Assembly (NCBI GenBank): GCA_030425705.1 | Contig: JAUHZU010000010.1 | Coordinates: 62,001 to 126,000 of the forward strand | Source of the DNA: Phycisphaerae bacterium | Lineage (GTDB): Bacteria; Planctomycetota; Phycisphaerae; Phycisphaerales; Phycisphaeraceae | Length of the DNA stretch: 64,000 bases | Direction of reading: 5' to 3' | Shown: one piece after another, positions 47,232 through 52,090 of the stretch | Numbering within the stretch: position 1 is the stretch's first letter | Layout of the letters: each line of letters begins with the position of its first letter | Made by a program: the position numbers and the translations under genes | The notes under the pieces: model-generated | Databases searched by the model: none | The model's input: the letters and a program-made list of their open reading frames with translations, nothing else | What the model was told of the DNA's origin: nothing

Positions 47232-48929
47232 CTACCCCCGCGTCAGTTTGCGGTACTTCAGCCGGTGCGGCTGGTCCGCATCGATGCCCAGCCGCTTCTT
47301 GCGGTCCGCCTCGTACATCTGGTAGTTGCCCTCGAAGAAGCGCACCTGGCTGTCGCCCTCGAACGCGAGGATGTGCGTCGCCACCCGGTCCAGGAACCAC
47401 CGGTCGTGGCTGATCACCACCGCGCAGCCCGGGAAGTGTTCCAGCGCCTCCTCCAACGCGCGGATCGTCTTCACATCCAGATCGTTGGTCGGCTCGTCCA
47501 GGAGCAGCACGTTCAACGGCTGCGTCAGCATCCGCGCCAAGTGGACACGGTTGCGCTGACCGCCGGACAACGTGCCGACTTGCTGAGACTGGTCCGTGCC
47601 CGTAAACGAGTACTTCGCCACATAAGCCCGGCTGTTCACCTCCATCTTCCCGAGCTTCAGCGTCTCCTTGCCGCCCGAGATCGCCTGCCAGACCGAGTCG
47701 CTGTCCTGCAGCGTCTCGCGCGACTGCTCGACGTACGACAGCGCGACCGTCTCGCCGACCTCGACGGTGCCGCTGTCCGGCTGCTCCTCGCCGGTGATCA
47801 TGCGGAACAGCGTCGTCTTGCCCGCGCCGTTCGGGCCGATCACCCCGACGATCCCGCCCGGCGGCAGCTCGAACGACACATCGTCCAGCAGCAGCTTGTC
47901 GCCGTACGCCTTGCTCGCGCCCTTCGCCCGGATGACGACGTTGCCCAGCCGCGGCCCGGGCGGGATGAAGATCTGCACCTCGGTCTCTTTCGCCTTCTCC
48001 TGCTCCTCGTAGAGCTGCTCGTACCGCGCGATGCGGGCCTTGTTCTTCGCCTGCCGGCCCTGCGGCGTCTTGCCGATCCACTCCAGCTCGCGCTGCAGCT
48101 CCTTCCGCCGCGCATCGTTGCGCGCGCCCTCCACGGCCAGCCGCTTGTCCTTCTGCGCCAGCCAGGACGAGTAGTTGCCCTTCCACGGGATGCCCTCGCC
48201 CCGGTCCAGCTCGAGGATCCAGCCCGCCACGTTGTCCAGGAAGTACCGGTCGTGCGTGATCGCGATGATCGTGCCCGGGTACTGCTGCAGGTGCCGCTCC
48301 AGCCAGCCCACCGACTCCGCGTCCAGGTGGTTCGTCGGCTCATCGAGCAGCAAAATGTCCGGCTGCTGCAGCAGCAACTGGCACAGCGCCACCCGCCGCT
48401 TCTCCCCCCCCGACAACGGCCCGATCAGCGCGTCCTCCGGCGGGCACCGCAGCGCGTCCATCGCCATCTCCAGCTTGCTGTCGATCTCCCACGCCCCCAG
48501 GTGCTCCAGCTGCTCCTGCACCTTCCCCTGCTTCTCGATCAGCTTGTCCATCTCCTCCGGCGACATCTCCTCGGCAAACTTCTCGTTGATCGCGTCGAAC
48601 TCGGCCAAGAGGCCGTACACCTCGCCCGCCGCCTCCATGACCGCCTCCTTCACGGTCTGGTCCGGGTTCAGCTTCGGCTCCTGCTCCAGCAGCCCGATCG
48701 TGTACCCCGGCTGCAACACCGTCTTCCCCTCGTACTCGGTGTCCTGCCCCGCGAGGATCCGCAGCAGCGTCGACTTGCCCGCGCCGTTCAGCCCGAGCAC
48801 GCCGATCTTCGCGCCGTAGAAGTAGGACAGGTTGATGTCCTTCAGCACGGGCTTGTTGTTGTATTCCTTCGTGACGTTGATCATCGAGTAGATGATCTTT
48901 TCCGGGTCGCTGGTCTTAGGCGCATTCAT
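47232..48929 (-). CDS. ettA: Energy-dependent translational throttle protein EttA (ABC-F)
   Basis: Ribosome-bound ABC-F ATPase that gates the first peptide bond according to the ATP/ADP ratio. The 565-residue protein has two ABC domains: Walker A GLNGAGKS and GPNGAGKT, signature LSGGEKRR and LSGGQRNR, Walker B DILLLDEPTNHLDAES and NVLLLDEPTNDLDVKT. The EttA arm and the P-site tRNA-interaction linker (about residues 245-320) are present, as in E. coli (555 residues). TACAAT seven bases before the ATG suggests a leaderless message. Confidence 0.95.
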   Translation of the reverse strand: MNAPKTSDPEKIIYSMINVTKEYNNKPVLKDINLSYFYGAKIGVLGLNGAGKSTLLRILAGQDTEYEGKTVLQPGYTIGLLEQEPKLNPDQTVKEAVMEAAGEVYGLLAEFDAINEKFAEEMSPEEMDKLIEKQGKVQEQLEHLGAWEIDSKLEMAMDALRCPPEDALIGPLSGGEKRRVALCQLLLQQPDILLLDEPTNHLDAESVGWLERHLQQYPGTIIAITHDRYFLDNVAGWILELDRGEGIPWKGNYSSWLAQKDKRLAVEGARNDARRKELQRELEWIGKTPQGRQAKNKARIARYEQLYEEQEKAKETEVQIFIPPGPRLGNVVIRAKGASKAYGDKLLLDDVSFELPPGGIVGVIGPNGAGKTTLFRMITGEEQPDSGTVEVGETVALSYVEQSRETLQDSDSVWQAISGGKETLKLGKMEVNSRAYVAKYSFTGTDQSQQVGTLSGGQRNRVHLARMLTQPLNVLLLDEPTNDLDVKTIRALEEALEHFPGCAVVISHDRWFLDRVATHILAFEGDSQVRFFEGNYQMYEADRKKRLGIDADQPHRLKYRKLTRG

Positions 48930-48942
48930 GGGCGGGATTGTA
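48930..48942 (-). promoter_or_regulatory. Candidate leaderless promoter of ettA
   Basis: TACAAT on the minus strand (48937-48942), seven bases from the ATG and no ribosome site; the 16 bases through the ATG are identical to those of the membrane protein gene starting at 20144. Confidence 0.5.
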
Positions 48943-48999
48943 GCGGAGCAGATTCAACCGCGGCGGCGCGGTCAACACGGAGGGACACGCAGACGAAAT

Positions 49000-49082
49000 G
49001 AAACCACCGATGCACACGGATGCACACCGATTACGCTCACGCGGAACTCGATCCGCGTGAATCGGTGTGCATCGGTGGTTTC
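49000..49082. repeat. Long palindromic repeat
   Basis: Perfect 18-base arms (49000-49017 and 49065-49082; words GATGCACAC and GTGTGCATC) enclose further nested complementary words (CACCGATT/AATCGGTG, TCACGCGGA/TCCGCGTGA), so the whole 83 bases can form one long hairpin. Intergenic, between ettA and the SRPBCC gene. No coding role. Confidence 0.8.
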
Positions 49083-49130
49083 AACCTGTCCCGGGTCCGC
49101 CTTACTCATACCTAGCGGCGTCCGGCGGGC

Positions 49131-49601
49131 TCACGCCGTCGCCGCCGCCGTCCCGCCGCCCTCGGCGTGGTCCTTCAGCTTCTTCATCATCTTCTTGAGG
49201 TGCATCTTCCCGAAGCACATCATGAGCGGCATCATCAGCTTCATGAAAAAGCCCATCTGCCCCTCGAAGTCGCACACGTAGTCCAGCTTCGTCCCGCCGT
49301 CCTGCTCGGCCAAGTGGTAGTCGGCCGTGGCCTTCATGTCCCCGCCGAAGCACCCGCCCCAAAACCGGATCCCCAGGTGCCTCGGCGCGTCGTGCGCGGT
49401 GATCACGCCGTCGTACGTCTGCTCCTTCCGGCCTTCCTTGATGACCATCCGCACCTTCGCACCGACCTCGGAGGGGTCCCCCTCCACGACCTCGTTGGAG
49501 ATCAGCCCGGTCATCCACTTCTTCTGCAGCTCCGGGTCCTCGATGTGGTCCCACACCGTCCGGATCGGCGCATCAATGTGCATCGTAAAAGTCATGGGCA
49601 T
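49131..49601 (-). CDS. SRPBCC-family (START-like) protein
   Basis: A 156-residue helix-grip protein: TFTMHIDAPIRTVWDHIEDPELQKKWM at the start, then VRMVIKEGRKEQTYDGVITAHDAPRHLGIRF and a long C-terminal helix, FFMKLMMPLMMCFGKMHLKKMMKKLKDHAEG, unusually rich in Met and Lys. AGGAG seven bases before ATG 49601 sets the start. Family members bind hydrophobic ligands; role here unknown. The upstream frame extension is intergenic repeat sequence. Confidence 0.8.
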   Translation of the reverse strand: MPMTFTMHIDAPIRTVWDHIEDPELQKKWMTGLISNEVVEGDPSEVGAKVRMVIKEGRKEQTYDGVITAHDAPRHLGIRFWGGCFGGDMKATADYHLAEQDGGTKLDYVCDFEGQMGFFMKLMMPLMMCFGKMHLKKMMKKLKDHAEGGGTAAATA

Positions 49602-49625
49602 GGCGGGGCTCCTGAAGGGTGCAGA

Positions 49626-49650
49626 TGAACCACAAAGACGCATGAAGAGG
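49626..49650. repeat. Degenerate copy of the GAACCACGAAGACGCG repeat
   Basis: GAACCACAAAGACGC near 49626 is a diverged copy of the dispersed repeat found at 51761, 51938 and 52716. Confidence 0.5.
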
Positions 49651-49785
49651 CGGAGAGGCCGGGCCCCACAGTCTACCCCCAATATCGCGCTGCACGAAGC
49701 ACGCCGTCCGGCGGCCAGACGGATCGCGCTTCCCCAGCACGCGTCCGAGGGGTCAATCAATAGATCAGGGATCGGGCGGCCCCGG

Positions 49786-50064
49786 TCAGGGATTCTGGGC
49801 CGGGGCGATCGCCAGCGATGCGCCGTCGCCCGTGTCCTGGCAGCACAGCGTCTTGTCCGACAGCGCCGCCGCCGCCTCCGGGTCCACCGCCAGGAACGTG
49901 TTCCCGTCCTTCTCGAACGTCTGGTCCTTGGGCCCCGGCTCGGCGATGCCCATGTTGATCTTCCCCTCCTCCGCGAACAGCCGCAGGGCCGTGTGCTCGG
50001 GCGCTTTCACATCGCTCAACTGGGAGGTGATCCAGGTCTCGGCTTCGGGGGTGACTGTCAGCAT
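49786..50064 (-). CDS. IscA/HesB-like small protein
   Basis: A 92-residue protein similar to the A-type Fe-S carrier fold: MLTVTPEAETWITSQL, LRLFAEEGKINMGIAEPGPKDQTFEKDGNTFLAVDPEAAAALSD, ending TLCCQDTGDGASLAIAP. The three Cys of true IscA (C-X60+-CGC) are not conserved; only a CC pair remains near the end, so Fe-S carrying is doubtful. It has a GGA-containing leader and stands alone. Confidence 0.72.
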   Translation of the reverse strand: MLTVTPEAETWITSQLSDVKAPEHTALRLFAEEGKINMGIAEPGPKDQTFEKDGNTFLAVDPEAAAALSDKTLCCQDTGDGASLAIAPAQNP

Positions 50065-50260
50065 CGGGTCGGTCCTTCCGTGTCAATACACGCCACCAGA
50101 CACCCGCACCAACACAGCACAAACGCCCGAAGGCCTCGAATCGTTCTTGCCTCACCCTAGGCCCAAAGCGCCCGACTGTCCAGCCCACGCATCATCACGT
50201 CCCGCTCCAAGCGATCGACGCCACGGTGTCAGACGTTCATGACAGCACGGGAGCACAACT
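50065..50260. other. Intergenic sequence before the phased array
   Basis: About 200 bases with no convincing frame. Contains a CCCTAGG-like word near 50155 and degenerate array-like words (CACGG near 50222 and 50247) that fade out of register. Nothing else seen. Confidence 0.4.
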
Positions 50261-50607
50261 CCCATCACGGTGTCGCTCGTCCGTCTAACGAAATGCTGCT
50301 CCGTCATAACACCGGCGCGCTGCCGCGTCACGGAAACATGCTCGCGCATCACGAAACCATACCGGTGCATAACGCGTCCTGATCGCTGCATAACGAAGCG
50401 GCGCCCGTGCATAACGGAACCCATCGTGTGCATAACGGCACGGAAGCGTTGCATAACGGAACGAGCCCGATGCATAACGAAACTATTCCGTTGCATAACG
50501 AAAGCAGGCCGGTGCATAACAGAACCTTCCTGCTGCATAACGAAAACAATCCGTTCCCCGCCAGATCGGAAGGGTTTCGTTATGCATCCGATGGTCTTCG
50601 TTATGCA
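50261..50607. repeat. Array of 21-bp phased repeats with core TGCATAACGAA
   Basis: The core TGCATAACGRA starts at 50366, 50387, 50408, 50429, 50450, 50471, 50492, 50513 and 50534, exactly every 21 bases, with about 10 variable bases between cores. Diverged cores continue the same register to the left at 50345, 50324, 50303, 50282 and 50261. To the right, one slot (50555) is empty, and two cores in inverted orientation (TTCGTTATGCA) occupy the next slots, 50576 and 50597. The period equals two turns of B-DNA, so every core faces the same side of the helix, as in plasmid iterons. The core overlaps a DnaA-box-like word (TTATGCA); at 50429 the extended word is TTATGCACA. All reading frames across the array are open simply because 21 is a multiple of three. 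Confidence 0.9.
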
Positions 50608-50778
50608 GGCAGGGCGATACGCCGCGTTCGGGCGGGGTTCTTGGGCGATGGAGGCCCGTAGCGGGGCGGGCCGAGTGGTTATCCGGGCGGACCCCGGCGT
50701 GATCGCGGCCGTTGCGGCTGATCCCGTGGGCGATGCTGTCGGGTTAAGTGCGGGTGGGGTTGTGCCGATTGGGTAAGT
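50608..50778. other. Intergenic sequence after the phased array
   Basis: About 170 GC-rich bases with no confident feature. Plus-strand frames continue open from the array but lack start signals. Confidence 0.35.
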
Positions 50779-51153
50779 ATGCTGACGCCCTCACCCCCGA
50801 TGACGAACCTGGAACGGCAGCGCGCGTTCTGCGCCCGCAACCCGCACTACTACCGCGACCGCCACCGCCGGAAGAAGGCCGAGCGCGCGGCCGCGGCCAG
50901 GCTCATGGCCGAGCACCCCGATCTCACCCTCGCTCAGGCCCACGCCATCGCCCAAGGCAAAGCCCCCGCCCCCCAGAAGGCCGAGGCCCCCGAAACGCCC
51001 CCGGTCGTGCTGGCCCTCCCGGCCCCGGAAGACATGGTCAACCCCATGGTCACCATGACCCTCCGCGACGCCCTCACCTACCAGCCGGCGAAGATCAGGA
51101 TCGTGAGCGAGCCCAAAACGCTGGACGATGCGGCATCGGCCGACGTAGAATAG
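50779..51153 (+). CDS. Small basic hypothetical protein
   Basis: A 124-residue protein, or 117 residues if ATG 50800 is used, which I find more natural since MTNLERQRAFCARNPHYYRDRHRRKKAERAAAA begins there. The N-terminal half is strongly basic and helical with RQRAFCARNPHYYRDRHRRKK, which suggests nucleic-acid binding; the C-terminal half is Pro/Ala-rich and acidic. No ribosome site. It lies between the phased array and a decayed toxin-antitoxin pair. I do not recognise the family. It is the nearest gene to the array and a candidate binder of it, which is speculation. Confidence 0.6.
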   Translation: MLTPSPPMTNLERQRAFCARNPHYYRDRHRRKKAERAAAARLMAEHPDLTLAQAHAIAQGKAPAPQKAEAPETPPVVLALPAPEDMVNPMVTMTLRDALTYQPAKIRIVSEPKTLDDAASADVE

Positions 51154-51183
51154 ATCGCGATTTATCCACGCGGCGGACCCGAT

Positions 51184-51439
51184 ATGGACCACCTCACCAT
51201 CCCCAATCCCCGACGGCCTCCCCGCCGACCAGAAGCGGGACCTCGCCGGCTACCTCACCGACCAGGTGAAGCAGATCACGGGCGACGGCCCATCGATCGA
51301 CGACGACCCGGCCGTCCGCGCGGAGATCGTGCGACGGATCAAGCAAGGCATGGACGACATCGCGGCCGGGCGGTTCTACTCCGCCGACGAGGCCCGGCGG
51401 CGGATCGCCGACCACCTCGACGAGACCCGGCCCCGATGA
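51184..51439 (+). pseudogene. Frameshifted antitoxin gene of a type II toxin-antitoxin pair
   Basis: ATG 51184 begins MDHLTIPNP and then runs into a wrong frame. The adjacent frame from about 51212 reads DGLPADQKRDLAGYLTDQVKQ...DDIAAGRFYSADEARRRIADHLDE and ends in a TGA at 51437-51439 that overlaps the toxin ATG by four bases. Removing one C from the C4 run at 51208-51211 would join the two into a protein of about 84 residues. The ending, with a helix leading to DEARRRIADHL, is typical of antitoxins that pair with ParE/RelE toxins. Either a real mutation or a sequencing error in a homopolymer. Confidence 0.65.
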
Positions 51440-51744
51440 GCTACCGGGTGGTCTACACCGACTCGTTCCTCGCGGATGTGCGTGACCACCTGGCGCACCT
51501 CCGCCGCGAGCGCGTGGCCGAGCGGGTTATCGACGACTGGTACATCAAGCTGTTCGACCGCCTCGACGACCTCGCGGTCTGGCCACGGTCCTGCGTGGTG
51601 TCGTAGCCGTACACCCGCGACGCCGGCCGGACGACCCACAAGCTCAACGTCGGCGACTACCTGGTGTTTTATCAGGTCGATGATGACCACCGCCGCGTCG
51701 AGCTGGTCGCCTTCTTTCACGGGGCGAAGGATTGGAAGCACTGA
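51436..51744 (+). pseudogene. RelE/ParE toxin gene with an in-frame stop codon
   Basis: The frame starting MSYRVVYTDSFLADVRDHLAHL stops at TAG (51604-51606) after 56 residues. In the same frame, sequence continues PYTRDAGRTTHKLNVGDYLVFYQVDDDHRRVELVAFFHGAKDW to TGA at 51742-51744. This is the full RelE/ParE fold, so an intact gene would make 102 residues. The stop interrupts the core between the second helix and the beta sheet, so the toxin should be inactive. Start overlaps the antitoxin stop (ATGA). Confidence 0.75.
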
Positions 51745-52090
51745 GTGCTGCCCGCATCGCGGAAGATTGAACCACGAAGACGCGGAGGGCACGAAGGAAG
51801 GCGAGAGGGACCCAACCACGAGCTGCGACCGTCAGGGAGCGGACGTACGGGGTGGATGAATACAAGTGGGTCGGTCCGCTCCCTCACGGTCGCGGCTCGT
51901 TGATGGCAACGCCCCCCGGAAGTGCCCCCGCCCCCGGAAGTGCCGAACCCCCGGCCCCGGAAGCGGTCCGCCGGCAGGAAGATTGAACCACGAAGACGCG
52001 AAGGGCACGAAGAAGGCAATCGTCAACGCAGAGGCTTTGGGTGGCTCGGGTACGAGTCCGCGAGCCACCGCCACCAACTTCCAAAATAGG
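51745..52090. other. Repeat-rich intergenic region, 346 bases, no gene
   Basis: Holds one partial copy (51761-51798) and one full copy (51938-52012) of the GAACCACGAAGACGCG dispersed repeat, plus GC-rich filler with repeated CCCCCGGAAGTGCC words. No coding frame is convincing. Confidence 0.6.
51938..52012. repeat. 75-bp direct repeat, left copy
   Basis: Matches 52716-52790 over 75 bases with a single mismatch. It begins AAGTGCCGAACCCCC and ends in GAACCACGAAGACGCG plus AAGGGCACGAAG. The two copies are 778 bases apart in the same orientation and flank the small gene at 52091-52633. Confidence 0.9.

Follow-up and report, generated by a model that had tools for sequence, protein, structure and literature searches.

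A 21-bp-phased array of direct and inverted sites linked to a small basic protein gene in Phycisphaerae

Layout of the array and the adjacent gene

The window, by which we mean the whole 64,000-nucleotide stretch of a Phycisphaerae bacterium contig that was analysed, contains an array of short cores at positions 50261-50607, followed downstream by a gene for a small basic protein (Table 1). The array comprises 14 direct and two inverted cores, all in an exact 21-bp register, as a first-pass annotation of the same DNA had described. The strong direct units begin at 50366 and recur every 21 bp up to the last start at 50534; all nine contain TGCATAAC unchanged, and the full core TGCATAACGRA is exact in six, the remaining three deviating at positions 9-11, which bears out the earlier description of these cores as near-perfect. 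The proposal that five diverged units extend the register back to 50261 also held, since 38 of their 55 core letters match in phase, whereas the ten other phases tested give 4-18 and none of 5000 Markov shuffles reaches 38. Both inverted cores were found where they had been placed, exact and in register.

Table 1 Features at the array locus (window coordinates)
Feature	Coordinates	Strand	Basis
Five diverged direct units	50261..50365	+	21-bp register, as in the strong units; 38/55 core letters at this phase
Nine strong direct 21-bp units, consensus TGCATAACGRAACCnnnCCGn	50366..50554	+	Per-position counts, Tandem Repeats Finder rows
Unit-length gap without a core, where direct sites switch to inverted	50555..50575	.	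Sequence
Inverted core TTCGTTATGCA, exact, in register	50576..50586	-	Sequence
Inverted core TTCGTTATGCA, exact, in register	50597..50607	-	Sequence
Leader block, mostly common to the same-genus relative G001 (GGGTTGTGCCGATTGGGTAAGTATG)	50740..50781	+	By-eye comparison of upstream sequences
Partner gene, small basic protein of 124 aa	50779..51153	+	ORF, relatives, codon pattern in several relative pairs, AlphaFold two-helix model
Two short reading frames (SYRVVYTDSFLADVRDHL...)	51236-51640
92-aa protein	49786-50064	-

The bases between the cores had been described as varying freely, which proved true of only part of the spacer: across the nine strong units, positions 15-17 and 21 are almost free, whereas positions 12, 13, 18, 19 and 20 keep one base in seven of nine, leaving a partly conserved spacer with AC at 12-13 and CCG at 18-20. 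Compared pairwise, the units average 88% identity over the core and 41% over the spacer, which is unlike a neutrally decaying tandem repeat. That the array is a coding or neutral repeat, as a period divisible by three and several open frames might suggest, is barely conceivable given that the core is invariant while the spacers diverge, that in-register inverted copies would encode another peptide than the direct ones, and that other genomes preserve both order and register. CRISPR repeats measure about 23-50 bp and are accompanied by cas genes. The window array, with an 11-bp core, a 10-bp partly conserved spacer and no cas gene among the neighbours scanned, was rejected as a CRISPR candidate. 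The contrast between spacer and core, the inverted copies and the other genomes thus agree with the first-pass reading of a helically phased site array rather than a CRISPR, a microsatellite or a coding repeat. Since the period equals two helical turns, the cores are kept on one face of the DNA.

The array is a single locus in its genome. All eight occurrences of exact TGCATAACGRA in the 4.1-Mb sequence lie inside it, with about one expected elsewhere by our own arithmetic from the base composition of the window, and a search of this genome with the pair pattern, allowing up to three mismatches, found no second array. The leader block between array and gene is a probable promoter and start region.

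The protein carries the N-terminal motif M[ST]NxERQRxFRxRNPxYYxRxHxxRKA and a tail motif LxLPAPE, in which LPAP is conserved. For the three partner proteins scanned, there was no match in Pfam (best 0.23), PHROG (0.31) or NCBIfam; a PDB sequence search with the partner protein returned nothing convincing (best E 0.39), and Foldseek with the partner model no match at E < 2 (best E 2.1), so that neither structure nor sequence search found a relative of the helix pair. The AlphaFold model places a helix at residues 10-20, a turn at the conserved NP, a basic helix at 24-45 and a short third helix (pLDDT 90-95 over residues 11-60, overall mean 76.9, pTM 0.44). The model is helical to residue 58 and continues as a low-confidence coil tail that carries the LPAP motif.

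Relatives of the module and their shared register

When GTDB genomes were scanned for exact matches to three CATAACG spaced 21 bp apart, at least 115 genome-contig loci were returned. On re-examination of the 115 listed, many proved to be 7-bp CGCATAA microsatellites or near-identical tandem repeats, and three contained in-register inverted cores (L057, L077 and L105). At L105 these cores are part of a different repeat, a CGTTATGC/CGTTATC 7-bp microsatellite some 270 bp distant, and the locus was rejected. The full architecture, in which direct cores are followed by inverted ones in one register, was present among the listed loci at L057 (Phycisphaerae bacterium GZL_FP_2_bin.106) and L077 (Phycisphaerales bacterium OFTM33). 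The arrays of these two loci and of the window are each accompanied, on the same side, by a small gene coding the N-terminal and LPAP motifs given above.

By building a profile from these three proteins and running it against 400 genomes of the order, we obtained matches in 14 genomes at E <= 0.01, six of which were counted (E <= 4.3e-9): the window's genome, G559 (the OFTM33 contig), G001, G077, G018 and a degraded copy in G734. A six-sequence N-terminal profile matched 10 of 397 genomes of the class at E <= 0.001, seven of them counted, and added G781 with two copies (G781a and G781b), G811 and G839 (the GZL_FP_2 contig). The weak protein matches left out, in 8 of the 14 and 3 of the 10 genomes, had E above 4e-4; those inspected among them are L152, L156, L170 and L172. 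The partner protein was present in 3 of 26 genomes from the order of G781 and in 3 of 392 drawn across the phylum, all three in the window's order, and within these samples it is sporadic and confined to the class. A search for exact-core pairs in 101 relatives had matched the window's genome alone; in the arrays that came to light afterwards, the cores are degenerate or inverted or the spacing is 42 bp.

Pattern matches in viral contigs (3, 2 and 15; 17 distinct loci examined) included none with the protein motif, and a CATAACGGAT group among these contigs was discarded because it occupies the last part of a phage coding frame. When viral contigs were scanned twice at the protein level, three weak matches emerged, L193, L176 and L177, of which L193 was set aside for having no ATAACGAA site. 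L176 (1210-1790) and L177 (1370-1950), both from IMG/VR, are near copies and thus a single case. They encode a 126-aa viral protein ending in PPMTNAERQRKWRENNPQQYRES, close to the partner motif, with three exact TATAACGAA sites (two direct, one inverted) at most 200 bp upstream; these sites are out of 21-bp phase and absent from the rest of the 4.7-kb locus, and three of them occurred in 0 of 5000 shuffles, for a 9-mer picked post hoc. The sequences make this locus a possible viral relative of the module.

Across the loci, in-phase direct/inverted sites number 14/2 in the window, 4/12 in G559, 5/7 in G839, 2/4 in G077a, 8/5 in G781a, 8/3 in G781b, 0/6 in G018 and 3/0, at 42-bp spacing, in G001; G811 has five direct and five inverted sites, with the inverted register offset by one base. 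In eight of the nine loci, the array holds 5-16 in-phase sites, compared with never more than four in Markov shuffles of the same upstream sequences (300 trials per locus), while the three in-phase sites of G001 fall inside the shuffle range and its case rests on the 42-bp repeat. The first-pass annotation had made its binding-array reading depend on the register surviving in some other strain, and it does persist in other genomes. In all seven two-orientation loci the direct cores come first and the inverted cores are gene-proximal, and the inverted start minus the direct start equals 1 mod 21 in six of them (0 in G811). The sites in G018 are of the inverted type only, in a register that slips one base along the array; together with the direct-only array of G001, this means that the head-to-head layout is not obligatory. 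These orientations also bear on the idea that the array acts as RNA or as a single-stranded hairpin formed from direct and inverted units, which we find extremely improbable: although the window array, taken as RNA, folds better than shuffled sequence (z = -2.8, 0 of 100 as good), better folding is expected of direct plus inverted repeats, two arrays have a single orientation each (G001 and G018), and elsewhere the two orientations are very unequal in number (the window and G559).

Linkage and joint divergence of array and protein

Nine copies of the gene in eight genomes, the window's included, each have an array upstream (window, G001, G559, G839, G077a, G018, G781a, G781b and G811), the last core lying 125-303 bp ahead of the conserved [NS]x[EQ]R codons. 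Outside these nine are the degraded gene of G734 (E 4e-9), in whose upstream sequence no array was seen, and a truncated second copy in G077 (G077b). G559 and G839 are not independent cases, as it was their arrays that led to them and their proteins were used to seed the protein model; arrays are nevertheless present at all six loci, in five genomes, that were found through the protein only (G001, G018, G077a, G781a, G781b and G811). A search from the DNA only (three cores at 21 bp, at most two mismatches, 277 genomes of the class) matched seven genomes, namely the window's own (G000), G018, G064, G077, G781, G811 and G839, and the protein is present in six of them. As a control, the same pattern read backwards matched at least 15 listed genomes, one to three times each, so weak single DNA matches are not significant alone; the six protein carriers are set apart by the position of their matches beside the gene. 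The exception, G064, has 21-bp arrays but no small protein.

The arrays of G064 are two near-perfect 21-bp tandems with GCA(A/T)AACG-like cores (L212:3015-3260 and L213/L132:1408-1680), one of which ends just ahead of a truncated HTH (PF09339) reading frame that we take to resemble the start of an IS1595-type transposase. Other 21-bp arrays were observed in G082 (L133:1444-1650), where CGTTNTGCAGCC units are irregularly arranged and no small-protein relative was seen nearby, and in Treponema sp. Ncb351_bin46, where GCATAACGAA..GT.CCGTTA arrays without in-register inverted cores occur on three contigs (L089, L116 and L128).

Over 31 aligned codons (36 pairs, NG86), change at the third position predominates in several relative pairs, with counts of 5/4/13 for G559-G077a (dN 0.13, dS 1.17), 4/4/14 for G559-G811 and 5/3/14 for G839-G077a. 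As dN exceeds dS in 5 of the 36 pairs, two of which include the window gene (e.g. window-G781a, 12/11/6), the codon test is supportive but not uniform. In G077a the reading frame continues for more than 300 aa.

The genome G781 carries two modules, and here protein and core have changed together. In G781a the protein motif is the usual one and the sites are GCATAACG, while G781b encodes a paralogue with MTSTERTQEFRRRNPDYNRLYKIRRR (diverged, STERTQEFRRRNPDYNRLYKIRRR), and its array is built of GGCGAAACG cores, eight direct and three inverted with up to two mismatches allowed, arranged in the same geometry. In G018, the second helix is diverged and the sites drift toward AGATAACG, which may be a second, weaker case beside the clear one of G781b; the AACG half of the core does not vary. 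Among the observations made, this joint divergence hints most strongly at recognition of the array by the protein. The first-pass annotation had raised the basic protein at 50779 as a possible binder, and the linkage in nine loci and the clear joint divergence argue for that partnership. One could also suppose that another host regulator binds the array, the small gene being merely its target and the array an upstream activating or silencing region. The promoter-scale distance between array and gene would suit such an arrangement, as does the fact that we infer the identity of the binder; yet the genome has no further exact site, unlike what a regulator with several targets would show, and the core changes with the gene product in the one genome that holds both versions. 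On balance, we consider such a regulator unlikely.

Genomic setting and interpretation

Among the Pfam-scanned neighbours are an ABC-F protein, an SRPBCC protein, a glyoxalase and an acetyl-CoA synthetase in the window, a carbamoyltransferase and PutA in G077, a redoxin in G001, a glycosyl transferase at G781b and an amino-acid permease in G839, with TPR and other proteins across the scan. As the scanned neighbours differ between loci, the module looks like a unit of its own. Directly past the partner gene in the window lie the two short reading frames of Table 1, which resemble an antitoxin/RelE-type toxin pair, with no Pfam match to the pieces scanned. The 92-aa neighbour, likewise without a Pfam match, was not found in four same-genus genomes searched (one of five, counting the window's own). 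The partial copy G077b spans 371 bp at 97.6% identity and consists of the array and gene start only; it lies at L178:5126-5744 (G077, 44 kb), where the gene start is repeated again and runs into palindromic REP-like repeats. Upstream of the paralogous array in G781, L183:7279-7812 encodes a transposase of Y1 type (IS200-like, RAYT-like; PF01797, 1e-8).

The sporadic presence and differing neighbours might also reflect a mobile or formerly mobile element, with the array as the landing region of a recombinase or transposase. The second partial copy in G077, the Y1 transposase gene near G781b, the G064 array adjoining a truncated HTH frame and the viral contig, where a similar motif is preceded by ATAACGAA sites, would all fit such an origin. 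However, no transposase or recombinase was found among the other neighbours scanned, and a G077 copy reduced to the array and the 5' end of the gene argues against clean transposition, which leaves this explanation distinctly unlikely.

Plasmid iterons are spaced about two helical turns apart, and the DnaA box is a TTATNCACA-type 9-mer. An iteron-type replication origin or a DnaA-titration site, as the first-pass annotation had entertained, would accord with repeated sites two helical turns apart, with the resemblance of TTATGCA to part of a DnaA box, and with the local minimum that cumulative GC skew reaches in the array's own 4-kb bin (48001-52000), although a skew from one 64-kb stretch is not meaningful alone. 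We now regard this suggestion as highly improbable. The DnaA 9-mer is read at a single site (TTATGCACA) and is not conserved; the core of G781b is GGCGAAACG, the paralogous array having CGTTTCGC; no Rep initiator gene was found among the Pfam-scanned neighbours; and the protein was unmatched in plasmid and phage records. DnaA-domain (PF00308) genes, two per genome in the three genomes G000, G001 and G077, are remote: in the window's genome both are on contig C16 and the array is on C2, and in the single-contig relatives they lie at 2.08 and 2.39 Mb with the module at 1.39 Mb (G001, nearest 0.69 Mb off) and at 1.40 and 2.20 Mb with the modules at 2.77 and 0.04 Mb (G077, nearest 0.57 Mb). Plasmid iterons with Rep resemble the module in their direct repeats and differ from it in that the module has head-to-head blocks, no Rep found and no origin link.

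In function the module appears to resemble the KfrA operator and the ParR and omega centromeres, yet it fell outside each class in the comparisons that were run. Its repeats lie upstream of its own gene in nine loci, in both orientations in seven; a KfrA-type operator has repeats of both orientations at the protein's own promoter, a placement that the module may parallel. The KfrA operator of plasmid RA3 has five 9-bp repeats overlapping its promoter, compared with up to 16 sites at 21 bp in the module; KfrA joins an HTH to an extended alpha-helical tail (residues 54-355), whereas the partner protein has 124 aa and is helical to residue 58; and KfrA is plasmid-borne, whereas the module lies on chromosome-size or genome contigs and its much smaller protein has no recognised relatives (PMC7783346). 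The repeats of type II ParR-parC lie upstream of the operon and bind one protein dimer each, forming a nucleoprotein ring or superhelix whose C-terminal tails dock a partner (PMC5016525). The likeness lies in the upstream repeat array and in tails for a partner, with docking and assembly conjectural for the module; ParR, however, is a ribbon-helix-helix protein on ~10-bp repeats with the motor ParM (PMC5016525), whereas the partner model has helices only and no strand. In the type Ib parS of pSM19035, the small repressor omega occupies arrays of 7-10 iterons overlapping promoters, and centromeres of this type contain repeats in both orientations (PMC5016525). The module shares with them a small protein, a multi-site array and both repeat orientations, and differs in protein fold. 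As for the remaining type Ib features, the model is not that of an RHH protein, and no ParA-type ATPase, other NTPase or actin-like motor gene was found among the adjacent genes scanned. The omega parS heptads measure 7 bp, and the system has a ParA-type partner.

The reading that we favour, and hold to be reasonably probable from the comparison of sequences, is that the array is a dedicated, helically phased and probably autoregulatory nucleoprotein site of the adjacent small protein. The N-terminal pair of basic helices would recognise the ATAACG-type core (GCGAAACG in the paralogous pair), and the protein would probably coat the array cooperatively. With sites two helical turns apart, bound molecules would line up on one DNA face, probably joining into one filament or wrapped complex in which the two blocks of opposite orientation usually face each other. 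Lying upstream of its own gene, the complex would probably set the expression of that gene, and the conserved LPAP tail may be shown in many copies to a host partner. One could speculate further, though here we are doubtful, that this is a self-contained chromosomal nucleoprotein module, in which a new two-helix DNA-binding unit on head-to-head, two-turn-phased sites clusters LPAP tails to recruit a host partner, acting as a motor-less centromere-like or selfish locus that moves between Phycisphaerae.

Among the open-licence papers listed in literature searches, we saw nothing on such arrays in Planctomycetes, which suggests that array and protein form a module not described there before. An orphan protein family is thereby tied to a probable DNA target by comparison alone, and the natural specificity pair GCATAACG versus GCGAAACG within one genome makes the recognition code of an unclassified helix pair testable. 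If it is true that the clustered tail motif recruits a partner, the module would represent a new way to build a defined nucleoprotein structure on a bacterial chromosome.
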